A DNA stretch of 64,000 nt from an uncultured Eubacteriales bacterium (GTDB lineage: Bacteria; Bacillota; Clostridia; Oscillospirales; Oscillospiraceae): the NCBI GenBank assembly GCA_900319635.1, contig ONPF01000019.1:38638-102637 (forward strand), written 5' to 3'. Position numbers and translations under genes: made by a program. Below, piece after piece: positions 704 to 63,066 of the stretch. Under the pieces are notes generated by a model. That model was not told where the DNA came from, searched no databases, and saw only the letters and a program-made list of their open reading frames with translations. How positions within the stretch are numbered: position 1 is the stretch's first letter; each line of letters begins with the position of its first letter.

Positions 704-1199
704 CAGACTGTAGACAACCCTTCGCCCATGCAGCAAGGTACCGACACGCATGGGGGGATTGTGAAGGGGGGGATGGGAGTCCCCCCTTCACGTTCAATCT
801 ACGCAAGAATGGGAACTTTTTTCGGAAGTTCCCATTCTTGCTTTCAAGCTGTCGACACTTTGTCGCCGTTTTCCTGTGCTTCCCCCCAGCGGGGACTTTT
901 GCCGCCCGCAAAAGCTGCCGGTGGCAGGTTTTGCAGGCAAAAGAGGCGCGCAGCGTCACTCCCCCAGTGCGCACACTGGGGGTGATGAGGGAGAGCCTTG
1001 GACAAAAGCCAACGCAGGAACAGAACGCTCTCCCTCGTCCGTCATCCGCCTCGCGTGGGATCGGCGGATGCCACCTTCCCCCGCTGGGGGAAGGACAAAA
1101 ACGATCGGCAAAAAAATATCGCCCCCGTGTGAGACATTTCCCGCTGAACCGATAGTAATAAGGGTGAGAGGCGTGAGCGCTCCGCCTCTGGGAAAGGAC
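704..1199. repeat. Repeat- and hairpin-rich intergenic region
   Basis: No convincing gene is seen in about 500 bases. The region holds a TGTAGACAA motif (711-719, also found at both ends of the 42.1-42.45 kb element), a hairpin at 761-791 (GTGAAGGGGGG and its complement), a perfect 16-bp hairpin at 803-841, a nested cruciform at 896-943, and a TCCGTCA/GGGGAAGG repeat unit at about 951-1096. ORFs called across it are shadows of these palindromes. Confidence 0.6.
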
Positions 1200-1208
1200 G
1201 TGACAAGA

Positions 1209-1763
1209 TTGGACGACAAGGAGATTCTCGATCTCTACTGGGCCCGCTCGGAGCAGGCCATCGAGGAGACCGGGCGCAAGTACGGCGCCGCGCTGCGCCG
1301 GGTGGCCCGGAACATCCTGGGAGACGAGCAGGAGAGCGAGGAGTGCGTCAACGACACCTGGCTTGCCGCCTGGAACAGCATCCCGCCCCGGCGACCGGAT
1401 CCTCTGCTGACTTACCTCTGCAAGATCACCCGCAACGGGGCGCTGAGCCGCCGCCGGCAGAGCCTTGCCAAAAAGCGCAACAGCAGCTTCGATGTGGCGC
1501 TGGATGAGCTGGAGGAGGTGCTGGCCGCCCCCGGAAGCCCCGAGCGGGACTATGAGTCCCGGGAGCTGGCCGCCGCGGTGAACGGCTTTCTGGCCGGGCT
1601 CTCTCGGGAGGATCGCTTCGCCTTCCTCCGCCGCTACTGGTACGGCGATCCGGTGAAGCGCATCGCCGCCCAGCTCAACAGCGGGGAGCACCGCCTCTCC
1701 GTCCGCCTTTCCCGTATTCGGAAAAATCTGAAAAACCATCTGGAAAAGGAGGGCTTGCTATGA
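1209..1763 (+). CDS. ECF-type RNA polymerase sigma factor
   Basis: A sigma-70 family extracytoplasmic-function sigma factor of ~184 aa. Region 2 is visible as the helix around LRRVARNILGDEQESEECVNDTWLAAWNSIPP, broken here by description: ARNILGDEQESEECV, then NDTWLAAWNSIPP. The C-terminal region 4-like helix-turn-helix follows FLRRYWYG...RIAAQL...VRLSRIRKNL. I chose TTG 1209 because the GGAAAGG at 1191-1197 is well spaced from it; GTG 1200 in the same frame is possible but too close. The stop overlaps the next gene start (ATGA at 1760-1763), so the two are translationally coupled. Its target promoters are unknown; the downstream membrane protein is the likely regulator. Confidence 0.85.
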   Translation: MDDKEILDLYWARSEQAIEETGRKYGAALRRVARNILGDEQESEECVNDTWLAAWNSIPPRRPDPLLTYLCKITRNGALSRRRQSLAKKRNSSFDVALDELEEVLAAPGSPERDYESRELAAAVNGFLAGLSREDRFAFLRRYWYGDPVKRIAAQLNSGEHRLSVRLSRIRKNLKNHLEKEGLL

Positions 1764-2980
1764 ATCGGGATCAGATCCTGCAGCTTCTGGACGCCGTGGA
1801 CGACCGCTTTGTGACCGAGAGCACCCGCTTCGATCCCGCACAGCGGCCGACGGAAAGGAGCGCACACATGAAGTCCAAACGCATTTTGACCTTTGCCCTG
1901 GCGGCAGTTCTGCTGTTGGGCCTGGGTGCCGTGGCCTACGCCGCGGGCTGGATCGGGCCCCGTGCCATTGTCCTGGAGGGGAGAAGCGCCTACACCGCCC
2001 AGCGGCAGGAGGACGGCAGCGTCAGCGTCACGGATAACCCCGCGGGCGGCTGGGTCACCCTGTCCGAGCCCCAGGAGACGCCGGAGGATCTGGATCCGGC
2101 CATCCGGGAGAAGCTGGAGGCCAAGGAGGCCGCCTGGGCCGAGTGGGAGACCTATCTTGCGCAAAACGACTGGTCGGGCAGAGTTCCGGCGGCCTTCGTC
2201 TTCCCCGAGGGGGCGGACGCCAGCGCCGTGGAGGAAAACGACGACGGCAGCTTCACCGTGGTCTTCTACGAAAACGGAAGCGTGATCGAACGGCGCAGCA
2301 CCACCCGGGAGGAGGTGGACGCCTACAGCGCGGTCATGGACTCCATCATGCTCTACGAGGGCAAGTACGACTTCAACTACCACTGCTCCAGCCAGGAGGA
2401 CGAGGCGAAGCTGGAAGAGATCGCCGCGAAGTACGGCCTGCGCCTGCGCAGCGCCGGAAAGATTCTGTGGAGCGGAGATACCTGCCGCACCTCGGAGGCC
2501 TGGGCAAACGAGGCTCATGGCACCGACACCCACAACGACTTCACCGGTCCCCAGTTTTTGACGGACGCCCAGCTCACCGACCGCATCGCCCAGGAATGCT
2601 GCCACGGGGATTTCTTCTATGAGACGCCCCTGGGCTTCGACAAGTTCTACTACTTCGACGAGGGCAGCTTCGGGCTGAGCTGGTATGTGGTCTTTACGCC
2701 GGAGCGGCAGGTGACCTGCTATGTCTACAACGCCGCTTATGGCACCCTGGTCTCCGGCGATGAGGTCATCAGCATGACCGACGATCTCAGCGCCTTCTCC
2801 GAGCGCAGCCATAGCTGCCCCGACGGCACGGCGATCACCGTCCTGCAGAGCCCGGAGGGGAGCTACTTCTACGTCTACCTGGCAAACTCCTACCTCTGCG
2901 GCCACATCAACGGCAGCCTCTCGGAGAGCGAAGTGGACGCCGTGCTGGATTCCGTCTGCTGGAGCAGCATCGGGAAGTGA
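1760..2980 (+). CDS. Membrane-anchored partner of the ECF sigma factor (putative anti-sigma factor)
   Basis: 406 aa beginning at the ATG that overlaps the sigma factor stop. Residues 1-37 are hydrophilic and presumably cytoplasmic, residues ~38-60 are a single membrane segment (RILTFALAAVLLLGLGAV), and the remaining ~345 residues are extracytoplasmic and acidic with no family I recognise. This topology and the 4-bp overlap fit an anti-sigma/sensor partner. No zinc anti-sigma HxxxCxxC motif is visible in the short N-terminus, so the role is inferred from position rather than homology. An internal ATG at 1868 (MKSKRIL) could also serve as a start, giving a simple secreted protein. Confidence 0.6.
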   Translation: MNRDQILQLLDAVDDRFVTESTRFDPAQRPTERSAHMKSKRILTFALAAVLLLGLGAVAYAAGWIGPRAIVLEGRSAYTAQRQEDGSVSVTDNPAGGWVTLSEPQETPEDLDPAIREKLEAKEAAWAEWETYLAQNDWSGRVPAAFVFPEGADASAVEENDDGSFTVVFYENGSVIERRSTTREEVDAYSAVMDSIMLYEGKYDFNYHCSSQEDEAKLEEIAAKYGLRLRSAGKILWSGDTCRTSEAWANEAHGTDTHNDFTGPQFLTDAQLTDRIAQECCHGDFFYETPLGFDKFYYFDEGSFGLSWYVVFTPERQVTCYVYNAAYGTLVSGDEVISMTDDLSAFSERSHSCPDGTAITVLQSPEGSYFYVYLANSYLCGHINGSLSESEVDAVLDSVCWSSIGK

Positions 2981-3033
2981 TAAGACCGAAGCGGCACCCG
3001 CAGGGGCGGCTATCTGCCGCCCGCCGTCTCTCC

Positions 3034-3209
3034 GTAGGGAGCGATCCCCAGATCGCTCCGCGTATAGGGCGGAAGAGCGAACAGCGGAGCCATGAAGGCA
3101 TGGCTCCCTACGGCGCAGACAGTACGGTTCCACCGTAGGGGCGACCATGGGTCGCCCGCTCTGTTCCGACGCTGTACCGTGTGGGCGGACGAGCGGTGCT
3201 CGTCCCTAC
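3034..3209. repeat. Two GTAG-headed REP pairs (family A)
   Basis: Four short palindromes in two inverted pairs: 3034-3060 and 3085-3111 (GTAGGGAGCGATC type), then 3135-3157 and 3187-3209 (GTAGGGGCGACC / GGACGAGC type). Each begins or ends with GTAG/CTAC at the stem base, and each pair is bounded by CCGTAGGG...CCCTACGG. This matches the known design of REP sequences acted on by REP-associated tyrosine transposases; such a gene lies at 30877-31371. Confidence 0.75.
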
Positions 3210-3299
3210 GGAATGGTCTCTGCGACTTTCTATTTGACGAAAGGGCTGGGCGGGGCTATAATGGCAATAACTTAGCCTGTGTTGAAACGGAAGATTGCC

Positions 3300-4001
3300 A
3301 TGAAACGACTCTTTTGCATCGTCATAGCCCTTGCCCTCTGCCTCTCCCTCTGCGCCTGCGGCAGCGCGGGCGAGGAGGAGCCCGCCCCGACGGAGGAGGG
3401 CCTGGAGCAGACCCTGATCCTGCCCCGGCCGGAGGAGGGAAGCGCCGCCCCCGAAGAGGGGGAGAGCGCGGTGACGCCGCCTCCCACGCCGGACGCCCGC
3501 CCCTGGCACCGGGTGGAGATCACCGCCGATAACTGGAGCCAGTACTTCCAGCTCCGGGAGATCCCCCTCTATTCCATCACCAGTTCCGGCGTCATCGCCC
3601 AGGTCTATCAGACCTACTGCGTGGTGCTGCGGGACGAGTATCTGGATCAGGTGAAGAGCGACGGGGACTATCAGGTGCAGTTCAGCTTCAGCTTTGACCT
3701 CTACTACAACACCCTGGACATCGACACCAAGAACTATCAGTACCGGCATACGGATGATTACGGCTTCCCCGGCAACCCGATGAAGGAGGCCACGGCCACC
3801 AAGTCCGCCGTGTTTGACCGCTACGCCCTGCGCTACAGCGCCTACGGCACGGACTACAGCCGCTACAGCGGCTACTCCAACGCCTTCTTCGCCGGCTGGG
3901 CCAACATCAATGTGGAGTCCAAGGTCTGGTCGGGCTTCTACATCGACCTGAACCAGGTGCGGCTGGAGAGCGTCTCCGGCTACCTGCAGCTGGCGGACTG
4001 A
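3300..4001 (+). CDS. Lipoprotein of unknown function
   Basis: About 233 aa with a lipoprotein signal peptide: basic start MKRLF, hydrophobic core, and lipobox LCAC-G with Cys at about residue 17-18. A Pro/Glu-rich linker (residues ~20-60) leads to a Tyr-rich globular region without a recognised domain. ATG 3300 is preferred over the upstream in-frame codon at 3279 because GGAAG precedes it and the signal peptide is then of normal length. It probably sits on the outer face of the cytoplasmic membrane. It stands alone and converges with the B12 uptake genes across a shared hairpin. Confidence 0.65.
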   Translation: MKRLFCIVIALALCLSLCACGSAGEEEPAPTEEGLEQTLILPRPEEGSAAPEEGESAVTPPPTPDARPWHRVEITADNWSQYFQLREIPLYSITSSGVIAQVYQTYCVVLRDEYLDQVKSDGDYQVQFSFSFDLYYNTLDIDTKNYQYRHTDDYGFPGNPMKEATATKSAVFDRYALRYSAYGTDYSRYSGYSNAFFAGWANINVESKVWSGFYIDLNQVRLESVSGYLQLAD

Positions 4002-4041
4002 GGGCGGTTTTGAGATTTGAAATTTGAGCTTTGAGAAAAGG

Positions 4042-4072
4042 AAAGCGCAAGGGCGTTCAGCCCTTGCGCTTT
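4042..4072. terminator. Bidirectional terminator between convergent genes
   Basis: Stem AAAGCGCAAGGGC with perfect complement, loop of five. On the + strand it is followed by TTTTGGTTT (ends the lipoprotein transcript). On the - strand the stop codon of the ECF S component lies inside the stem and CCTTTTCTC follows. Confidence 0.8.
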
Positions 4073-4587
4073 TGGTTTACAAATCGCTCCATGAGCGGGT
4101 AGAGGCGGGGGTAGAGCACCAGCGTCAGCACGAAATTGCTGGCGCAGTGGGTGAGATCGAAGGGGATTCCGGCGATCCACATGGCAAAGTAGCCCTTCCA
4201 GCCGCCCATGATGCAAAACCAGGGGATGTACATCAAGGGGCCGAACAGCAGCCCCCAGAAGCCTGCGATCACCGCCCAGAGCAGGGCGGAGCGGTTTTGG
4301 CGGAACAGCATGGCCACCACCACCAGCAGCGGCCAGATGAACACATAGCTGAGCCACCAGGTGCTGAAGCCGAAGATCAGCCCCTCCAGCAGCACATAGA
4401 TCCACACCGTGGCCAGCGCCTTCCAGCCGAAAAACACCGTGGTCAGGATGATCAGCACCGCGTTCAGCTGAACGTTGGGGATGGCGGACAGCGCCGCCTT
4501 GACCGCGAAGATCAGCGCCCCCATCAGGGCGAGGGCGGCGATCTCCCAGGCGGAAAACTTACCAGCCGGTCGTGAGCGTGAACTCAT
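4057..4587 (-). CDS. ECF transporter S component, probably cobalamin-related
   Basis: 176-aa integral membrane protein with about five to six hydrophobic segments and the S-component pattern of energy-coupling-factor importers: N-terminal amphipathic stretch, then ALMGALIF, PNVQLNAVLIIL, and FGPLMYIPW. S components bind the vitamin and dock on shared EcfAA'T modules, none of which is in this window. The substrate is inferred as cobalamin (CbrT-like) because the operon starts with a B12 riboswitch. Its start lies inside the end of the upstream DUF4430 gene (29-bp overlap), indicating one transcript. Queuosine or another pteridine-like substrate cannot be excluded by sequence alone. Confidence 0.75.
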   Translation of the reverse strand: MSSRSRPAGKFSAWEIAALALMGALIFAVKAALSAIPNVQLNAVLIILTTVFFGWKALATVWIYVLLEGLIFGFSTWWLSYVFIWPLLVVVAMLFRQNRSALLWAVIAGFWGLLFGPLMYIPWFCIMGGWKGYFAMWIAGIPFDLTHCASNFVLTLVLYPRLYPLMERFVNQKRKG

Positions 4588-4978
4588 AATGCTCGCCGTC
4601 GGCGATCACGGTGTCGTCCACTCCCGTGGCGGTCATCTCGCCGTCCTTGGTCAGGCACCACCACTGCTGCTGGGCCTCGTCGGCGGTCTCGCCGTCCACG
4701 GTGAGCACATAGAGGCCGTACTCGCTCTCGTTGCCCTCGATCAGCTTTTCCTGCTCCAGAGCTCCGCGCAGGGTGACCTCGTCCGTGGCGATGGCAAACT
4801 CCTTCTCGCTGCCGTCTCCGTGCACCACCACGAGGGTGATGTGGGTCTTTCCGGCATCGGCTGCCTCAGCGGCGCGCTTCTGCGCCGGGGGACCCCACAG
4901 GAAATAAGCGCCTACGGCTGCCGCAACGACCACAAGCAGAAGGACGACGGCAAGAATGGTTTTGGTTTTTTTGGACAT
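4559..4978 (-). CDS. DUF4430 (transcobalamin-like) membrane-anchored protein
   Basis: 139 aa: N-terminal signal anchor (residues ~5-25, AVVLLLVVVAAAVGAYFL) followed by a ~110-residue extracellular DUF4430 domain. Recognisable features are the VHGDGSEKEF strand, the ALEQEKLI helix, YGLYVLTVDGE, and the aromatic WWCLTKDGE strand. The fold is related to the C-terminal domain of intrinsic factor/transcobalamin. It is first in a two-gene operon under a B12 riboswitch and overlaps the S-component gene, so I infer it captures or presents corrinoid at the cell surface to the ECF importer. ATG 4978 is preferred to the longer frame, which would run into the leader. Confidence 0.8.
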   Translation of the reverse strand: MSKKTKTILAVVLLLVVVAAAVGAYFLWGPPAQKRAAEAADAGKTHITLVVVHGDGSEKEFAIATDEVTLRGALEQEKLIEGNESEYGLYVLTVDGETADEAQQQWWCLTKDGEMTATGVDDTVIADGEHYEFTLTTGW

Positions 4979-5044
4979 CAAACATCTCTCCTTTCTTTGT
5001 TCGGGGCTTATGCCCCATCGGAAATCGCACAAAGAAAAAGAGAG

Positions 5045-5073
5045 GGCGGGCATGGCAAAGCCAGGCCGCGCCA
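5045..5073 (-). terminator. Probable riboswitch expression-platform terminator
   Basis: GC-rich interrupted stem (GGC/GCC blocks) followed on the - strand by CTCTCTTTTTCTTTG, placed between the B12 aptamer and the DUF4430 start. It fits transcription termination when B12 is bound. Confidence 0.55.
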
Positions 5074-5117
5074 TACTTTGACCGGGTTCCGCGGTTCCTT
5101 GTACGACACAGCGTTAT

Positions 5118-5285
5118 CAAAAATTCACTGTCCGGGCAGGTTTTCTGACTTCGGGAAAACGGATTGCCACGGGCCTTGCGGCCCTCGCAATGACGGTCTT
5201 CCGCTTCACAGTGGCGGCCCCGCCAGGGATTTTCACCCAGATTCCCCTGTTGAGTACGGCTGCGCGTACATCCCGGTCCGATTTG
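5118..5285 (-). promoter_or_regulatory. Cobalamin (AdoCbl-type) riboswitch
   Basis: The - strand carries the conserved B12-box sequences in order: GGTGAAAATCCC (5226-5237), GCCGCCACTGTGA around the core (5208-5214 CCACTG), and AGTCAG...ACCTGCC (5135-5150). It precedes the DUF4430/ECF S component operon, so B12 would repress uptake genes. The variable arm at 5156-5194 is formed by a GTCATTGCGAG...GGCAATCCGTTTTC repeat unit also found at 42130-42232. A TTGTAA-17-TATACT promoter lies just upstream, with the -10 near 5300. Confidence 0.93.
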
Positions 5286-5335
5286 CTTGCGGGGAGAGTA
5301 TAGCATGAATAAGCAGCATTTACAAGCAAAACAGA

Positions 5336-5373
5336 GCCTCCGGCGTTGTATCAAAACACACAACGCTGGAGGC
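5336..5373 (-). terminator. Terminator after the restriction-modification operon
   Basis: Stem GCCTCCGGCGTTGT paired with ACAACGCTGGAGGC (one mismatch), about 55 bases after the endonuclease stop on the - strand. Confidence 0.6.
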
Positions 5374-5429
5374 TGAATTCTAACTTAACCTTTTCTAGAA
5401 AATTCGCAAAATGGAAATACCTTGAAAGT

Positions 5430-6179
5430 TCAATCGTCATAGCCGCTGTTAAATTTGACTAATTTATCCCAGTTAATACCCCCATCTGCATCACAAAAGA
5501 GAGTGATAAATTGCTTAACAAGGCGATTGCTTGCTTTGTTGTAACTCTCCCTGTACTTTTCAAGATAAATCTCAGGTTTCTTCCCCATGTATCCTATGAT
5601 TTTTATGTAAAACTCCCTATCACCAGTTAGTTCTTCCCAAAAGGCTTGACCTGCGAGTTCTCTGTATATCGTAGGACGGCCTTTCCCTGTTTGACGTTTT
5701 TTCCCGTAGCTGTATCCGATGATGGGTTCAAATCGTGCTTTTGCCTGTTGCACCAGTTTTTGCGCAGCAAGAAAATTCTGCTCCTGCCGCTTCTTGCTGT
5801 CGGCATTGAAGACAGACGGGCCGCTTTTCACGGCAATAGCATAGATTGTGTTGCTTTCCTTGTCCTCAACCATAATATCAACGCCCTCTGCAAGGGCTTT
5901 ATTTCCGCCACTTGCTGCGATTGCGAGAGGCTCAAAGAAACAATTTCCAAATATTGTTTCCTCGCTGCTAGAAACAGTGGCAGACAAAACGCTATCTACG
6001 ATTTCAGCGGCGCTTTCTATGGCTTTTGCCCTATATAGATACGGGTTTTTGCGCTTCATGATATCCCCAATGCTTATAGTATCAATTTTAGACAAAAGGG
6101 AAGTATAAAACTCCTCTAGTGCATTCCCAATGGCACGTTCAATCTCTTTGGAATCTACACCGTGTTTGCAAATTGCCAT
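5430..6179 (-). CDS. Type II restriction endonuclease, PmeII family
   Basis: 249 aa resembling the PmeII-type endonucleases: MKRKNPYLYRAK near residue 41, the SSSEETIFGN block near residue 72, then a PD-(D/E)XK-like core with GVDIMVED (~residue 100) and AVKSGPSVF (~residue 114), and the conserved end FCDADGGINWDKLVKFNSG. It would cut DNA at the site protected by the adjacent m5C methylase. It lies 16 bp after the methylase stop on the same strand with its own GAGGTG site, so the methylase is translated first, a normal safe order. GC content is clearly lower than in the neighbours, which points to horizontal acquisition. Confidence 0.85.
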   Translation of the reverse strand: MAICKHGVDSKEIERAIGNALEEFYTSLLSKIDTISIGDIMKRKNPYLYRAKAIESAAEIVDSVLSATVSSSEETIFGNCFFEPLAIAASGGNKALAEGVDIMVEDKESNTIYAIAVKSGPSVFNADSKKRQEQNFLAAQKLVQQAKARFEPIIGYSYGKKRQTGKGRPTIYRELAGQAFWEELTGDREFYIKIIGYMGKKPEIYLEKYRESYNKASNRLVKQFITLFCDADGGINWDKLVKFNSGYDD

Positions 6180-6195
6180 CTATATCACCTCAAAA

Positions 6196-7287
6196 TCAAT
6201 TGATTGTCTTGTGTGCAGAAGTTCCTCTTGTACGCTTTGTAAACACTTCAGCATCCCCGTTAGCAGTAGCAATAAGCGCCCTTCCCACAGCTTCTGCTAA
6301 CCCGGTAGGGACAGCGTTTCCAATTTGCTTATATATGTTAGTGATGGTTCCGGCTATTTTCCATCCTTCAGGAAATTGCTGAATACGCGCATATTCTCTG
6401 ACAGATAAAGGCCGATCTTTCGTTGGATGACACATCATTGTTGCTTTTTGAACCGGAGAAGTAACAATAGTGGGGGAAGGTTGAGAATAAGATAAACGCC
6501 TGTAAAACCCCACTTTTCCACCGCCGCTTTTCCACGCACCTCCCATTGCTATGGGTTGAACCGCTAATGGCAGATCACGCCAATTTCCTCCCTCTGGTAC
6601 CATTCGTAAGTAGCGAAGCCGTTCTTCGGAAAAATGCATACATGGCTCTGGGTAGTTTTCTATGTCCTTTATCGTTTCACCAAGCGTACGCCATCTCATT
6701 TGCGGGAGTTGATGTTTCATGAAGTGCGTTTGAGCGGGAAGGAATATTTCTTCGTTATCGCGGCTTCCTAAAATGATTAATCTCTCGCGAAACTGCGGAA
6801 CTCCAAAATTTACAGCATCAAGAACACCGAAAACGGTTTTGTAGCCGATTTTTCTAAATTCTTCAAGAATAATGTCCAAAACACCGCCGGGTGCGCCGCC
6901 TTTATCAACCGCAATACTGGTAAGTCCTTTGACATTTTCAAAAACAAAAAAGCGAGGACGCGTATCGTTTACAACACGTATAAATTCCATAAAAAGAGAT
7001 CCTCGAGGGTCATTAATCCCGAGCCGCTTTCCTGCGGTCGAGAAAGGCTGGCAGGGAGGACCACCACAAAGCAAAAAAGCTGCATTCTGTTTTATTCCTG
7101 CTCGCTCCAGTATTGTCATCGAATCGATCTGACGGATGTCTCCGTCTATGGCGGGTTTGCCATTTCTTAACATTGTTTCATAGCATGATGGATCAAAATC
7201 CTGGCAAAGCTTTATATCAATCCCTGCTTTTTCAAGTCCAAGGTCTAAGCCCATTGCGCCAGAAAAAAGTGAAATAGACTCATACAT
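6196..7287 (-). CDS. DNA (cytosine-5-)-methyltransferase
   Basis: 363 aa with the ordered m5C methylase motifs: I (LFSGAMGLDLGLEKAG, SAM binding), IV (CGGPPCQPFS with the catalytic Cys), VI (FFVFENVKGL), VIII (QFRERLIILGSR) and X near the C-terminus (YKQIGNAVP). The variable target-recognition region is at about residues 190-290. It modifies one cytosine in the site cut by the downstream PmeII-like enzyme. ATG 7287 has AGGGG upstream; the longer frame would include the promoter. Direct repeats flank the -10 element, suggesting autoregulation. Low GC matches the endonuclease, so the pair moved together. Confidence 0.95.
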   Translation of the reverse strand: MYESISLFSGAMGLDLGLEKAGIDIKLCQDFDPSCYETMLRNGKPAIDGDIRQIDSMTILERAGIKQNAAFLLCGGPPCQPFSTAGKRLGINDPRGSLFMEFIRVVNDTRPRFFVFENVKGLTSIAVDKGGAPGGVLDIILEEFRKIGYKTVFGVLDAVNFGVPQFRERLIILGSRDNEEIFLPAQTHFMKHQLPQMRWRTLGETIKDIENYPEPCMHFSEERLRYLRMVPEGGNWRDLPLAVQPIAMGGAWKSGGGKVGFYRRLSYSQPSPTIVTSPVQKATMMCHPTKDRPLSVREYARIQQFPEGWKIAGTITNIYKQIGNAVPTGLAEAVGRALIATANGDAEVFTKRTRGTSAHKTIN

Positions 7288-7305
7288 GATAGACACCCCT
7301 TGCAG

Positions 7306-7336
7306 ATGAATGAACAGATTATACCATGAATGAACA
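7306..7336 (-). promoter_or_regulatory. R-M promoter with two direct repeats
   Basis: ATGAATGAACA occurs at 7306-7316 and 7326-7336, 20 bp apart, with a - strand TATAAT (7318-7323) between them. This is the expected geometry for a repressor binding twice on one DNA face. Confidence 0.55.
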
Positions 7337-7577
7337 TGCTTGTGTAGTCCCTTTGCAAAAAAAGCGAGAAATAAAGCCGAAAAATATGGATAACACAAGC
7401 TTTTCTTTGTAATAGTCCATCAAATTACACACAATTAGTGTGTTCCGATAGAGCAATATGATTAGTCCACATGAAAACAATGGTAGCAATCACAATCCAT
7501 AGACCAAAATGCGATGAGATTTGGGCTATTTTCGGATAGAAAATCGGCGCGACCTGGATAGTCACGCCGAGCACATT
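7337..7577. other. Intergenic spacer between R-M operon and ATPase gene
   Basis: AT-rich; no gene or known RNA recognised. A hairpin at 7545-7569 (GGCGnGAC/GTCnCGCC) followed by ATTTTCT on the - strand probably ends the ATPase transcript. Confidence 0.5.
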
Positions 7578-8282
7578 TCAAAAGCCCTCCTTTGTGAAGG
7601 CCTCCCAGCTGCGGTGCATGTAGGTCTCCAGGGCGAGCGCCTCGCCCACAAAGCGGGGATCGGGCCCGTCGGCCAGAAATTCCTCCAGAAATTCCCGCCG
7701 CCCGGTGGTCAGCGCCACACCCAGGCCGGAGAGGCGGGAGGTCTCCCGGATCACCTCATAGCCCCGGCGCAGATCCTCGGCGCTTGCGAAGTTCAGGAGG
7801 TTGGAGTTATTCACCAGCGCCGTCACCGGGAGCCGGGCAAAGCCCTCCAGCTGCTCCTTCAGCTTCAGGATCTTCTCCGGGGTCTCGGACATGGGGCGGA
7901 ACACGTTCACAATGTCCCAGACGTCCAGTTCCCCCTCCCAGGCGGCAAAGTCCGGGTGATAGCGCCCCAGGGACAGGGCGCCGGCGGCGTCCCCGCCCAC
8001 GTCGAAGATCACCAGATCCCAGCCGTCGGTAAAGGCGGAGGCCACGGCGGCGGACATGCTGCTGGGGGTCACCCCCTGGCCGGCGAAGGTGGGCGAGACC
8101 AGGTTGATCTGCTTTTGGGCCAGCAGGGAGACCTTGTCCGACATGCGGAAGTAGTCGTTGACCTTGTCCAGGTCGATGACCAGGGTGCGCAGCCCCTCCC
8201 CCGCGGCCTTCACCGCCAGGTTGATGGCGATCTCGGTCTTGCCGGAGCCGTAGTTGCCCACCAGGACGATCATGCGTCTCAT
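7578..8282 (-). CDS. ParA/MinD-like P-loop ATPase of unknown role
   Basis: 234 aa with a Walker A motif GNYGSGKTE at residues ~8-16, LVIDLDKVND (Walker A' region) and DLVIFDVGGD (Walker B), characteristic of SIMIBI-class ATPases. No partner such as ParB or a flagellar gene is adjacent, so the cargo is unknown. The start ATG overlaps the stop of the DUF896 gene (ATGA), so the two are coupled. Use as a general NTPase is safe; a partition role is only one possibility. Confidence 0.7.
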   Translation of the reverse strand: MRRMIVLVGNYGSGKTEIAINLAVKAAGEGLRTLVIDLDKVNDYFRMSDKVSLLAQKQINLVSPTFAGQGVTPSSMSAAVASAFTDGWDLVIFDVGGDAAGALSLGRYHPDFAAWEGELDVWDIVNVFRPMSETPEKILKLKEQLEGFARLPVTALVNNSNLLNFASAEDLRRGYEVIRETSRLSGLGVALTTGRREFLEEFLADGPDPRFVGEALALETYMHRSWEAFTKEGF

Positions 8283-8491
8283 TTTTTCTCGCCCTTCTTC
8301 TGCAGCTTGCGCTTTTTCCCGTCCGGGCCCACCACATAGGTGTTCTCCAGCACCTGGATAGCGCCCTGACGCCACTCGGCGATGTATTCCTTGCGCAGCA
8401 TGTCCCGCTCGCCCAGTTCTTCCTCGGTCAGCGCCCGGACCTTGGCCAGCGCGGCCAGCTCGTTGATGCGATTCAGCTTGCTGTTTTCCAT
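8279..8491 (-). CDS. DUF896 (YnzC-like) protein
   Basis: 70 aa with the DUF896 signature: RINELAALAKVRALTEEE followed by ERDMLRKEYI. Small cytosolic alpha-hairpin proteins of this family are widespread in Bacillota; B. subtilis YnzC belongs to an SOS-induced operon, but most copies have no known function. It ends in a Lys-rich tail and overlaps the start of the ATPase gene by 4 bp. Confidence 0.9.
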   Translation of the reverse strand: MENSKLNRINELAALAKVRALTEEELGERDMLRKEYIAEWRQGAIQVLENTYVVGPDGKKRKLQKKGEKK

Positions 8492-8536
8492 TGGTATGTT
8501 CTCCTGTACCTAAAAAACTGTCGTCCCCTCGTCCTC

Positions 8537-8556
8537 TGAAAACTCAAAACTCAAAA
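8537..8556 (-). repeat. TTTTGAG heptamer repeat abutting a stop codon (family D)
   Basis: Read on the - strand, the YfbR stop TAG is followed at once by TTTTGAG-TTTTGAG-TTTTCAG. Same arrangement as at 4011, 11749, 22868, 23121, 26303, 26596 and 36175. Confidence 0.7.
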
Positions 8557-9144
8557 CTACTCGATCGTCCCCAGTTCGTCCAGGGTCAGCTCGAAGGCGG
8601 GGATGAAGTGCTCCAGAAAATAGGCCACCTCGGGCAGGCCGCTCTCCTCCAGGATCTGCCGGGTCTGCTTCTCGGCGGAGAGGAACTCGTCGTTGCCGGC
8701 CTTGCGCTCCTCGATGCACTTGATGTAGGCGGAGAGCTTGTCCGCCGCCTTCACCAGATCGTGAAGCCGCTCCTGGGTCTCGCCGGAGAGCAGCTCCTCA
8801 TAGGCCGGGCGCAGCGCCGCAGGCAGGGTGTCCAGCAGCTTGTGGCAGGCCAGGGCCTCCACCTGCTTGTAGGCGTCCCGGATCTCGGGGCTGTGGTACT
8901 TGATGGGGGTGGGCAGGTCGCCGGTGAGGATCTCGCTGCTGTCGTGGTAAAGGGCCACGGCGGCGGCCTCGTTGGGGTCGCAGGGGACGCCGAACACGTC
9001 CCGCCGGATGACGCCCAGGGCGTGGGCCAGCACCGCCACCATATGGCTGTGCTCCTGGATGTTCTCCGGAAGGGAGTTGCGCATCAGGCTCCAGCGGCCG
9101 ATGTAGCGCATCCGGGAGATGTAGGCAAAAAAGTTCTCACTCAT
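8557..9144 (-). CDS. YfbR-like 5'-deoxynucleotidase (HD domain)
   Basis: 195 aa HD-superfamily hydrolase. Metal ligands are visible as EHSHMVAVLAHAL (~residue 31) and ALYHDSSEILTGDLPTPIKY (~residue 68), the latter being the YfbR signature for dephosphorylating dNMPs. A second conserved block is KAADKLSAYIKC. ATG 9144 begins MSENFFAY, usual for the family. It acts in nucleotide pool control. Its stop codon TAG runs directly into a TTTTGAG heptamer repeat. Confidence 0.88.
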   Translation of the reverse strand: MSENFFAYISRMRYIGRWSLMRNSLPENIQEHSHMVAVLAHALGVIRRDVFGVPCDPNEAAAVALYHDSSEILTGDLPTPIKYHSPEIRDAYKQVEALACHKLLDTLPAALRPAYEELLSGETQERLHDLVKAADKLSAYIKCIEERKAGNDEFLSAEKQTRQILEESGLPEVAYFLEHFIPAFELTLDELGTIE

Positions 9145-30876: not shown

Positions 30877-31371
30877 TTATAGTGGATAATACCGATCCTC
30901 AACCCAGCGGGCGGGATTGTTTTCAATGTACTCACAGATTTCATTGTAATCTTTCTCGTTTCGGATCACATGCTCATAGTACCCGCGCTGCCAGAGCGAC
31001 CCCGTCAAACCTTTTTCCCTACAGTGGTTCGCAGAAAGCGATTTCAGTGCACCGACGATCCGTCCAAGCGTAGGGGCGACCCTTGTGGTCGCCCGCGTCT
31101 GGCCGATCAAGCAAATGAAATGGATATGGTTAGGCATGATAACAAAGGGCTTGATCTGAACAGCATAAAGATTTTTCGTCTGTTTTAAACATTGTTCCAC
31201 GAGCTTTCCATGTTCGGTCAGTGTCAGGGACGGGCGACCGCAAGGGTCGCCCCTACAGACAGACGACAAGATGCAACGCCGGTCGTGGGTGCAAATTGTG
31301 ACAAAATAGGCGCCGAGGGCGCTGTAATCGTAGTCCGGCAGGCGGATTTGTTTCCGCTTCGGCAAGTCCAT
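30877..31371 (-). CDS. REP-associated tyrosine transposase (RAYT, Y1/HUH superfamily)
   Basis: 164 aa. The HUH motif is PNHIHFICL, and the likely catalytic Tyr lies in the C-terminal helix NEKDYNEICEYIEN; FVTICTHDR near the N-terminus is typical of transposase_17/TnpA_REP. It would nick and join single-stranded REP hairpins. Two of its own family A repeats lie in frame within the coding sequence (31070-31095, 31232-31256), encoding RATTRVAP and RGDPCGRPSL inserts. ATG 31371 has GGAGGTG. Two more REPs lie just upstream and one downstream. Confidence 0.9.
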   Translation of the reverse strand: MDLPKRKQIRLPDYDYSALGAYFVTICTHDRRCILSSVCRGDPCGRPSLTLTEHGKLVEQCLKQTKNLYAVQIKPFVIMPNHIHFICLIGQTRATTRVAPTLGRIVGALKSLSANHCREKGLTGSLWQRGYYEHVIRNEKDYNEICEYIENNPARWVEDRYYPL

Positions 31372-31394
31372 GGAACTCACACCTCCGATTATCT

Positions 31395-31462
31395 GTAGGG
31401 GCCGGCGTCCCCGACGGCCTGGCCCCTGTCTCCCGTGTAGGGGCCGGCGTCCTCGACGGCCC
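31395..31462. repeat. Tandem pair of REP units upstream of RAYT
   Basis: Two copies of GTAGGGGCCGGCGTCC.CGACGGCC (31395-31420, 31437-31462), the same GTAG-headed palindrome as at 30668. Confidence 0.8.
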
Positions 31463-31545
31463 GTTTTGTCCATTATATCACACATTCGGCAAAGAAAACC
31501 GGCGTCCTTGCACATCGTGGAACATCTCGGAACATCTATGAAGAG

Positions 31546-31574
31546 GATGGAGAGAAAACGCACATCTCTCCATC
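31546..31574 (+). terminator. Orphan terminator hairpin
   Basis: GATGGAGAGA and complement followed by ATTTTTTTAC. No + strand gene precedes it, so a short unannotated transcript may end here. Confidence 0.55.
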
Positions 31575-31605
31575 ATTTTTTTACATCTTCCAAGAGGAAA
31601 AGCGA

Positions 31606-31634
31606 TTGCTTTCTGCGGCTTGATATGCTACAAT
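31606..31634 (+). promoter_or_regulatory. Promoter of the structured leader RNA
   Basis: TTGCTT (31606-31611), 17-bp spacer, TACAAT (31629-31634). The predicted start is at about 31640, exactly the first base of the structured element. Confidence 0.7.
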
Positions 31635-31638
31635 AATC

Positions 31639-31798
31639 CTGCCACGCAATTTCATACTATTACACTACAGGTATGTGTTTTTTCTTTGGTAAAAACACAT
31701 GCCCTTTTCGGCATACCTGTGGTGTGAAGAAATTGCGTGGCAGCAAACGGGGCCGCTGTGTTTTTCGTGCGTGGTTCCGTTTGGGCCACGCACTTTTT
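31639..31798 (+). ncRNA. Structured leader RNA with terminator: candidate orphan riboswitch
   Basis: P1: 31639-31653 pairs perfectly (15 bp) with 31729-31743. Inside, CACTACAGGTATG (31663-31675) pairs with CATACCTGTGGTG (31712-31724); a 10-bp hairpin ATGTGTTTTT/AAAAACACAT (31673-31700) and a small GCC/GGC hairpin make a multi-branched fold. An intrinsic terminator follows: GTGCGTGG (31767-31774) with CCACGCAC (31786-31793), then T5. The P1 3' strand TGCGTGG (31734-31740) plus AAACGG (31745-31750) can instead pair with CCGTTT (31777-31782) and CCACGCA (31786-31792), an exclusive antiterminator. I do not recognise the aptamer class. A stand-alone small RNA is the alternative. Confidence 0.7.
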
Positions 31799-31850
31799 AT
31801 TTTCCCGAAAAATGTGTGGTGAGAATAAAAATGAAAGAGAGGTAAGGGGA

Positions 31851-32438
31851 ATGGAAGAAAAAACTATTGTCGTAGGAAAACCCAGCGTTACACTTATGCC
31901 GATTATTGGAACGGCTATCGGAATTCTGCTGCTTGTCTTGAACTTTTCGGGAGTTTTCGGTGGATCCTATCGTTACAATTCTCACTATGAGCGAATCGGT
32001 TTTACTCCTCCTATTGCTATTACTCTCGTCGGCGCCTTCTTTATCGTCGCTTCGATTGTGCTCTTTCTCTATGCAAGAAACTGTGAAATTCAGGTAACCG
32101 AGAAGAGAGTTTTTGGGAAAGCCGCATTTGGAAAAAGGGTAGACATCCCTGTAGATTCGATTTCTGCTGTTGGAACGATCGGAATCCTAAAAGGAATCTC
32201 CGTCGCAAGCGCTGCTGGCGCTATTCAGTTTTTATATCTTGCCAATGTAGACGAAGTTCATAATGCGTTAAGCAAGCTTGTTGTTGAAAGGCAAGGAAAA
32301 CAGCCTACGATGACAATTAAGCAAGAAATCCCCCAAAGCAACGCCGACGAGTTGGCAAAATATAAGGATCTACTTGATAAGGGCATCATTTCACAGGAAG
32401 AGTTTGACGCAAAGAAAAAGCAATTATTAGGGCTGTAA
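31851..32438 (+). CDS. Membrane protein with PH-like and SHOCT domains
   Basis: 195 aa. Two membrane helices (residues ~12-32 and ~55-80) are followed by a bacterial PH-like strand set (CEIQVTEKRVFGKAAFGKRVDIPVD), and a C-terminal SHOCT motif (DELAKYKDLLDKGIISQEEFDAKKKQLL). SHOCT modules mediate interactions; the function of the whole is unknown. GAGGTAAGGGG precedes the ATG. It is the only gene downstream of the structured leader, 50 bases after the leader terminator. GC content is well below the local average, suggesting acquisition. Confidence 0.8.
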   Translation: MEEKTIVVGKPSVTLMPIIGTAIGILLLVLNFSGVFGGSYRYNSHYERIGFTPPIAITLVGAFFIVASIVLFLYARNCEIQVTEKRVFGKAAFGKRVDIPVDSISAVGTIGILKGISVASAAGAIQFLYLANVDEVHNALSKLVVERQGKQPTMTIKQEIPQSNADELAKYKDLLDKGIISQEEFDAKKKQLLGL

Positions 32439-32447
32439 TAAAGCAAC

Positions 32448-32472
32448 GGCAGGGAGCAAATCACTCCCTGCC
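32448..32472 (+). terminator. Terminator after the SHOCT gene
   Basis: GGCAGGGAG-caaatca-CTCCCTGCC followed by TTTTT. Confidence 0.9.
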
Positions 32473-32476
32473 TTTT

Positions 32477-32934
32477 TCATCCCTCCAACAGTCCAATGTA
32501 TTTATACGCTGTGGTCCTGCTGATATCGCAAATCCTCGCCAATTCCGTAAGATTGAATGCTCCCTTCTTATACTGCGGATAGTGCCGAAGGAAGTTAGCG
32601 GGAAGTTCGTCAAGCGTGGTCTGCGGTCTGCCGATCCGCCTTGCGGTACCCGAAAAACGCTTCGGGCTTGCGCTGATCCTCGCGTTTTTCGACCGCTGCG
32701 GAAATTGCGGCCTTGCTGAATCTGCCACCGGCAGCGCAAGGCCGCAATTCCCTTCGCCCTCGTGTTCCGCATACCTGAACGCACACGCTCGCGGATGATC
32801 CGCAACTCCAACTCCGCGAATACGCCCGACATTTGGATGAACGCATTGGTCATCGGGTCGAGTTCCCCATTGGAGCAATCTACCTGAATGTTGTCTACGA
32901 TGGAGAGATCGCGGGTGTTTTTGTTGTGTTGCAC
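32477..32934 (-). pseudogene. Serine recombinase remnant, truncated and interrupted
   Basis: The - strand encodes the end of a resolvase catalytic domain (NAFIQMSGVFAELELRII, RERVRSGMRNTRAKG) in one frame, and the resolvase C-terminal part (GRPQTTLDELP, LTELARICDISRTTAYKYI) in another. Between them (about 32640-32755) sits a palindromic insert of two hairpins that breaks the frame. The catalytic Ser region at the N-terminus is missing altogether. An intact protein would be ~190 aa, like small Tn3-type resolvases/invertases. A lipoprotein gene now begins where the 5' end should be. Confidence 0.8.
32645..32752. repeat. Palindromic insert inside the recombinase remnant
   Basis: Two adjacent hairpins: CGAAAAACGC/GCGTTTTTCG (about 32651-32691) and GGAAATTGCGGCCTTGC/GCAAGGCCGCAATTCCC (about 32698-32752). 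Confidence 0.65.
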
Positions 32935-43068: not shown

Positions 43069-43210
43069 CAGCCATTATCAAGAGCGGTGGAGGGAACGGC
43101 CCTGTGAAGCCCGGCAACCTGTGGAAACATAAGGTGCCAAATCCGGCGGTGAGACGAAAGATGAGGCTTTTTTGCTTTGATTGACGCGCGCTGTCCGGGA
43201 CAGCGCGCGT
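43069..43210 (+). promoter_or_regulatory. SAM-I (S-box) riboswitch with terminator, upstream of metK
   Basis: S-box core in order: TTATCAAGAGCGGTGGAGGG (split of a longer run), then ACGGCCCTGTGAAGCCCGGCA, ACC...AAGGTGCCAA, and GAAAGATGAG closing P1. An intrinsic terminator follows at 43184-43210 (ACGCGCGCTGTCC and complement, then TTTCCTTTTT). High SAM would stop metK expression. Confidence 0.95.
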
Positions 43211-62946: not shown

Positions 62947-63066
62947 AAAAAATCCCATCGTCACCGATGGGAATACACAAACCCATCGGTCAAGCTTTAG
63001 CACCTTGCCTCTCGGTAGGTTGCTGTGCGGTCACAGAGCTTGTCTCTCGCGCACTCTTCATAGGTC
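62947..63066 (-). promoter_or_regulatory. SAM-clan (S-box core, no P4) riboswitch with terminator
   Basis: On the - strand: AAGAG-TGCGC-GAGAGACAAGCTC-TGTGA, CCGCA, CAGCAACCT, GAGAGGCAAGGTGCTAA, the ordered S-box core. P2 is GTGCG/CGCAC; the P2-loop CAAG(CT) pairs with AGCTTG just after GCTAA (the pseudoknot). P1 pairs GACCTAT (63060-63066) with ATGGGTT (62980-62986); there is no P4. Platform: antiterminator CCGATGGG (62982-62989) with CCCATCGG (62964-62971), or terminator CCCATCG-gtga-CGATGGG (62954-62971) then ATTTTTT. Promoter TTGACA-17-TATGAT just upstream. Confidence 0.85.

Follow-up and report, generated by a model that had tools for sequence, protein, structure and literature searches.

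The locus described here occupies positions 31606–32438 of the window, by which we mean the whole 64,000-nucleotide stretch of DNA analyzed. It comprises a promoter, a structured leader RNA that ends in an intrinsic terminator, and a protein-coding gene. Its features, with the evidence for each, are as follows.

31606–31634, + strand: promoter as a whole, from sequence and family register; −35 box TTGCTT at 31606–31611, 17-nt spacer, extended −10 TG-c-TACAAT with TACAAT at 31629–31634; +1 predicted near G31641, inside P1
31639–31653, + strand: P1 5′ strand, from sequence and fold; 13 of 13 model pairs double-changed
31668–31675, + strand: X, the P2 5′ strand, CAGGTATG, from sequence, fold and partner swapping; pairs with #2 (31712–31719) or, as 31670–31676, with #1 (31697–31703), from partner swapping
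31674–31682, + strand: S1, UGUGUUUUU, which pairs with S2 in a local hairpin, from sequence, fold and partner swapping
31691–31699, + strand: S2, AAAAACACA, which pairs either locally with S1 or, in a long-range pseudoknot, with S3, from covariation and swapping
31697–31703, + strand: strand #1, ACATGCC, the P3 extension, which competes with #2 for X, from partner swapping
31712–31719, + strand: strand #2, CATACCTG, the P2 3′ strand, from sequence and partner swapping
31729–31743, + strand: P1 3′ strand, from sequence, covariation and partner swapping
31734–31740, + strand: TGCGTGG within the P1 3′ strand; alternative partner 31786–31792 in the terminator 3′ arm, from sequence and swapping
31744–31756, + strand: antiterminator 5′ strand, 13 bp with 31771–31783, from the minimum-energy fold of the RNA as yet lacking the terminator 3′ arm
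31757–31765, + strand: S3, UGUGUUUUU, linker partner of S2, from covariation and partner swapping
31767–31798, + strand: intrinsic terminator, stem 31767–31776 with 31784–31793 and T5 at 31794–31798, from sequence, covariation and a terminator scan
31851–32438, + strand: downstream gene of 195 amino acids with hydrophobic stretches and a C-terminal SHOCT domain, from the ORF and Pfam

An earlier note on this DNA had described a 105-nt element closed by a perfect 15-bp P1 (31639–31653 with 31729–31743), and the sequence reads exactly so; CAAACGGGGCCGC, TGTGTTTTT and the terminator follow. TGCGTGG of the P1 3′ strand is indeed repeated in the terminator 5′ arm (31768–31774), and AAACGG (31745–31750) has the potential to pair with CCGTTT (31777–31782), as had been claimed. 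The terminator was recovered at its claimed position by a terminator scan in which shuffled sequences averaged 0.3 terminators. The fold of 31630–31810 reaches −77.9 kcal/mol, compared to −45.15 ± 3.81 for shuffled sequences (z −8.6; 0 of 200 as good). Instead of the multi-branch core that had been proposed, the energy fold gives a long P2/P3 arm and a small hairpin, and the S2–S3 helix (31691–31699 with 31757–31765) is an addition to the earlier description. Downstream, 52 nt separate the T tract from the ATG of a gene that had been called PH/SHOCT: Pfam assigns the SHOCT domain (1.5e-10) and finds no PH domain at E 0.001. Two SAM riboswitches and one cobalamin riboswitch lie elsewhere in the window, at 43072–43167 (+), 62952–63066 (−) and 5118–5291 (−).

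By blastn, the window element has five further matches in its own genome, and 11 of 40 genomes were matched, its own included. We aligned 18 copies with MAFFT (A1) and built from them a covariance model, R1, of 166 positions and 23 pairs that cover P1 and the terminator only. In the large samples, where stricter filters and the scoring of few candidates per genome make the counts lower bounds, R1 matched 50 of 147 genomes of the order (E 1e-3), 73 of 291 of the class (E 1e-8) and 49 of 101 in a genus sample (E 1e-6), the window's own genome included each time, and 19 of the 34 genus genomes that are at least 90% complete (E 1e-6). Because R1 matches only part of the genus genomes, the element is accessory within the genus. 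The phylum sample, searched at E 1e-6, gave a single match among 299 genomes, the window's own; at least nine of the others belong to the same class or are nearer. A strict pattern led to 14 named contigs, all metagenome-assembled and labeled Clostridia, Clostridiales, Ruminococcaceae or Ruminococcus, and the titles of 10 of them indicate rabbit (Lapin), roe deer, sheep or yak gut. It is from these contig names that we take the class to be Clostridia. Eight carriers picked for high counts, for which more candidates were scored, hold 10 to 29 R1 matches each at E 1e-6, numbers that may include antisense matches of the palindrome. At one locus, a Gut-1 RNA (RF01706, 72.7 bits; L205:2892–2963, − strand) lies about 240 nt upstream of an element copy.

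Of 123 matches we kept 82 as a first set of copies, leaving out two decayed ones (L003 and L004) and 39 antisense matches over kept copies of the palindrome. Alignment A3 holds 81 copies and A5 another 71, none of which was used in model building. Decayed copies at L003:1422–1545, L004:1500–1611 and L187:530–696 keep the terminator and have seemingly lost either the aptamer or else the 5′ strand of P1 together with the −10; they seem to be natural deletion mutants of the switch.

Conservation and covariation among homologous copies, which the earlier note had proposed to examine, are strong for P1, the terminator and S2–S3 in both alignments. P1 is paired in 98.6% of cells in A3 and 98.0% in A5, with 13 of 13 pairs double-changed in each, and the terminator in 97.7% and 95.9%, with 9 of 10 pairs double-changed in each. 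S2–S3 joins GGUAAAAAYGCA inside P1 to UGYGUUUUUC in the linker, with AAAAAYGCA/UGYGUUUUU as its core; in these alignments, which were fitted to P1 and the terminator and not to S2–S3, it is paired in 95.3% of cells with 6 of 10 pairs double-changed (A3) and in 92.8% with 5 of 10 (A5). None of 500 shuffles attained any of five measures in the whole-structure test on either alignment, and sliding the partner strands abolished the pairing signal in both. Taken alone, S2–S3 was matched by 0 of 500 shuffles on four measures and by 7 of 500 on pair types. We also ranked 9695 A3 column pairs by a corrected G statistic, a comparison in which sequence relatedness is common to all pairs. Places 1–13 are all P1 or terminator pairs, place 14 is the column pair 111–251, which prolongs S2–S3 beyond an unpaired U, and S2–S3 pairs stand at 20, 21 and 43. 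Swapping partners between copies weakened S2–S3 (0/5000; 80 of 82 copies usable, with an S2 picker that misplaced S2 in a few copies, such as L087).

The same partner-swapping approach indicates that strands inside P1 have more than one partner. X paired better with its own #2 than with swapped ones (19.8 versus 11.3), as it did with #1 (12.5 versus 9.8), and S1 paired better with S2 (18.4 versus 16.0); the test thereby backs P2, P3 and P3-extension pairing (0/2000 each). P3 was assessed in this way because A1, by our reading, had lined up S1 poorly. As a control, #1 with #2 came out slightly above chance (71/2000).

Covariation support for the antiterminator is weak. Its cells are paired in 89.5% of cases versus 86.1% in shuffles, mostly by tolerance of G–U pairs, and its count of double-changed pairs was attained by 335 of 500 shuffles; in the A3 ranking two of its pairs stand at 28 and 59, and the other ranked ones range from 921 to 8677. 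Computed minimum-energy folds of the RNA cut just before the terminator 3′ arm contained the antiterminator for 60 of 81 copies, and P1 for all 81, which suggests that the antiterminator would be available before the terminator. Full-length folds gave the terminator in 58 of 81 copies and the antiterminator in 20, with the terminator not winning in 23 of 81. In the window, the early fold has a 13-bp antiterminator (31744–31756 with 31771–31783) that has 31771–31776 in common with the terminator and whose apex takes two bases of S3. Because this overlap amounts to only two pairs, the competition between S3 and the antiterminator in the window copy would be partly indirect.

The earlier note had also made the P1 3′ strand common to P1 and the antiterminator, an idea that holds modestly across the family. 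The P1 3′ strand scored 14.44 with its own terminator 3′ arm and 13.05 with swapped arms (0/5000), a modest advantage. Two control pairings were null, namely the P1 3′ strand with the terminator 5′ arm (2905/5000) and the P1 5′ strand with the terminator 3′ arm (820/5000). The P1 5′ strand with the terminator 5′ arm was above chance (40/5000), as would be expected if the P1 5′ strand resembles the terminator 3′ arm.

A strict consensus scan finds no promoter at the locus, and the promoter claimed earlier stands on its register in the family. Among the 152 copies with 60 upstream bases (one copy without them was dropped), a sigma-70-type promoter stands in a single register in 148, compared to 126 of 3040 places picked at random in these loci. 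The spacer is 17 nt long in 143 of these copies, the TG extension is present in 142, and the −10 ends 3 nt ahead of the model start in 135. A start 7 nt past the −10 would make the first nucleotide the G of the second model P1 pair. In the window this would be G31641, give or take a few nucleotides, which lies in the third P1 pair and not at the element's first base, where the start had been placed.

The family is likewise consistent in what lies beyond the terminator. An RBS-like sequence and an ATG follow within 60 nt in 94 of 153 copies, versus 4 of 153 on the antisense side and 174 of 3242 random places (about 5%); the other 59 have no such combination within 60 nt by the rule used. In the first set of copies, 44 of 71 picked ORFs begin 14–25 nt behind the element, and there is therefore no room for another promoter there. 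By covariation and placement, the element has two features of riboswitches, a conserved RNA structure and a position in the 5′ leaders of genes.

Comparison of copies establishes P1, the terminator, S2–S3, both X pairings, the promoter register and the placement before genes, and on this sequence evidence we think it likely that the element is a cis-acting transcription attenuator of a new class of structured 5′ leader RNAs, most likely an orphan riboswitch and probably one with a broad regulon. The earlier note's reading of the locus as a candidate orphan riboswitch is strengthened by the covariation, the lack of an Rfam match and the regulatory placement. In the mechanism that we propose, transcription would start within the first P1 pairs, so that the 5′ end would be held in P1. 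In the arm inside P1, X would exchange #1 and #2, and S2 (AAAAAYGCA) would exchange the local S1 and the linker strand S3 (UGYGUUUUU), the latter pairing being a pseudoknot that spans P1. As the polymerase crosses the linker, an antiterminator hairpin would become possible whose 3′ strand is also part of the terminator and whose apex includes part of S3. With S1–S2 closed, S3 would be free, the antiterminator would form and the gene would be transcribed. A signal that stabilized P1 and S2–S3 would weaken the antiterminator, so that the terminator would form and transcription would stop before the start codon. Because the antiterminator apex uses S3 bases, S2–S3 would shorten the antiterminator and favor termination; S1–S2 would spare it. 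We infer that a ligand exists, that it favors S2–S3 and that its effect is OFF; the opposite polarity would also be compatible with the sequence.

The downstream genes are diverse. In the window's own genome, SHOCT proteins lie behind the window copy, L002 and L003 (aptamer lost), a family 2 glycosyltransferase behind L004 (aptamer decayed), an AMP-binding enzyme behind L005 and a PASTA protein behind L006. We picked an ORF for 71 of the 82 copies of the first set and scanned 65 of the 71 against Pfam at E 0.01. These 65 proteins represent 60 families, none found in more than four proteins (LRR_5, SHOCT, Zn_ribbon_3), with AMP-binding in three. For the second set, 60 ORFs were picked from 71 copies and 46 were scanned; LRR_5 (BspA-type LRR) occurs in 17, Cu_amine_oxidN1 in 5 and MazE-type DNA-binding domains in 5, in a set skewed by the origin of 40 of the 60 loci in two genomes of one genus. 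A hydrophobic N-terminus, which is a crude proxy and is counted here over related LRR proteins that are not independent, is commoner in genes close behind the leader, where 49 of 92 have it, than among the remaining ORFs of these loci, where 43 of 179 do (Fisher p 3e-6). We rejected a single pathway behind the downstream genes, having found none in either Pfam-scanned set, and the absence of a common pathway is unusual for a metabolite riboswitch. In three genomes, leaders (L005, L067 and L068) stand ahead of similar AMP-binding ligases (M-Q-E...G-PSIDKPWLKYY start), which form a recurrent target.

Such a broad regulon would also suit an attenuator that is sensed by a protein or a tRNA instead of a small molecule. 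So would the P1 sequence, which is conserved despite being paired: at 7 of its 13 positions, 89% or more of the 81 copies have the same base, as protein contact would require. This conservation may, however, stem from the alternative pairing with the terminator arm. Among 25 of the 60 Pfam families of the first set and all 23 of the second, for the first downstream gene only, no RNA-binding family is prominent, and Rfam gave no T-box match on the element in the window or at 35 further loci, at gathering or lax settings. We consider sensing by a protein or tRNA unlikely.

A further possibility is that the terminated RNA is itself the product, with stable small RNAs acting in trans and nearby genes gaining only leaky readthrough. 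The element does have its own promoter (148 of 152 copies) and, nearly everywhere, a terminator, as a stand-alone small RNA has, and S2 is well conserved among the A3 copies. Tandem units without an intervening gene also exist: the eight high-count carriers contain ten tandem groups with starts about 200–270 nt apart, and L087 has three units in a row. Against a product acting in trans, an RBS and start codon stand behind the terminator far more often than at random places (94 of 153 versus about 5%), 44 of 71 picked ORFs begin within 14–25 nt, and the antiterminator and strand exchange would be needless for a plain small RNA, so that we judge this alternative improbable. Tandem pairs in L162, L164, L168 and L187 precede secreted-looking proteins; the second unit has its own promoter and is mostly diverged, and the linker is ATCAAGCTGCGTTTTTATT in L162, L164 and L187. 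These pairs are possible two-input gates.

A riboswitch reading raises the question of kinship with known classes, with which the element shares, in general terms, a closing helix, a pseudoknot and a terminator. At the gathering score, Rfam 15 places no family on the window element, and a lax search over 321 bases adds hits of just five microRNA models, each scoring far short of its threshold. Nor did Rfam match the element at 35 further loci (20 searched at gathering, 18 at lax E-values, three in both), in line with the earlier note, to which the core resembled no class it knew. Pseudoknotted riboswitches that terminate transcription include examples among the fluoride, preQ1 and SAM classes. 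Like them, the element has a P1-closed aptamer-like domain with a pseudoknot between an inner strand and the linker, has a terminator opposed by a putative antiterminator and is placed before a start codon. Unlike them, it has no covariance-model match, has a promoter in register with P1, and occurs with up to 29 matches per genome ahead of unrelated genes.

The c-di-GMP-I and -II riboswitches are broad-regulon switches that control surface genes in clostridia, and the element resembles them in its many copies per genome and in the surface and secreted genes downstream. In contrast to these switches, it drew no match from the c-di-GMP riboswitch models in Rfam, in the window or at the 35 loci, and 4 of 12 carriers (G000, G064, G161 and G435, 83–99% complete) have no GGDEF match at E 1e-8, whereas 8 do. 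One of the four, G435, has 29 element matches. The missing GGDEF matches argue against c-di-GMP as the signal, and c-di-GMP is an unlikely ligand. Given these and the empty Rfam searches, we regard it as very improbable that the element belongs, in highly diverged form, to a known riboswitch class.

Comparative-genomics motif screens (PMC11109978, PMC8632094 and PMC8040213) have found orphan structured leaders by covariation, some with terminators, as in the element; a term search of their text gave no motif of this anatomy or host range. Full-text literature searches yielded no description of the element, and a prior unnamed listing is possible in supplementary alignments, which lay outside this search. 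In kind, then, the element is a structured transcription attenuator. As far as is testable it is new as a class, in its promoter in register, its pseudoknot exchange, its high copy number and its tandem use.

The flanks of the copies bear on how the element has spread. In L007, L008 and L009, from the same genus, about 95–164 bp upstream and 45–61 bp downstream to the start codon are common, and the genes differ. The conserved upstream part contains a terminator-like hairpin, GATGGAGAGA...TCTCTCCATC, followed by a T tract, which in the window lies just before the promoter at 31546–31582; could it be an upstream insulator of the cassette? L077 and L079 have in common the leader and no less than 1.5 kb ahead of it (86% over 1654 bp), and their similarity ends immediately past the terminator, which raises the question of gene replacement behind a kept switch. 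Because copies with common flanks precede different genes, the promoter–leader–RBS unit appears to be re-used before new genes. The window copy has no blastn match in plasmid or phage collections, and two strict patterns have none in viral contigs; we rejected a phage or plasmid origin on these grounds.

A Y1_Tnp (IS200-like) transposase gene (30877–31563, − strand, PF01797), whose protein we take to resemble RAYT, lies just upstream of the leader in the window, and REP-like GTAGGGGCCGGCGTCC repeats (31227–31258 and 31395–31464) lie directly upstream. By eye, REP-like sequence is also present behind the terminator in L183 and L198. Behind the SHOCT gene is an apparent resolvase/invertase remnant (32461–32934, − strand; Pfam Resolvase, 39-residue match). 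REP palindromes are repeated palindromic elements with a RAYT-type transposase. The element too is palindromic and repeated, with a Y1_Tnp gene next to the window copy, whereas it differs from REP palindromes in its greater length, its promoter and terminator and its compensatory pair changes. A dispersed mobile or repeated element, a promoter-bearing palindrome without a regulatory role, would fit the many copies at unrelated genes (the earlier note had named a transposed repeat as a counter-explanation), the common flanks of L007–L009, the neighboring Y1_Tnp gene and the decayed copies L003, L004 and L187, yet the compensatory changes in three helices, the promoter register, the placement and orientation before start codons, the lack of plasmid, phage and viral matches and the upstream neighborhood kept by L077 and L079 better fit a regulatory leader and make such an element highly improbable.

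Returning to the attenuator, we note that broad-regulon leader RNAs usually report global signals. A more specific and more tentative proposal, which we put forward as a possibility only, is that the element constitutes a new riboswitch class for a global signal that is neither c-di-GMP nor the ligand of a known class. Throughout gut Clostridia, portable promoter-plus-switch cassettes would then have been placed ahead of as many as about two dozen unrelated genes in a genome, often genes for surface proteins, and would be used either singly or as tandem multi-input gates. The covarying S2–S3 and P1 strands provide ready-made mutants for tests of the mechanism, and the copies of the element list the genes that would be under the putative signal's control. 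With up to 29 matches per genome, no Rfam 15 match and a presence in a quarter of the class sample (73 of 291), the element points to an unrecognized signal in gut Clostridia.
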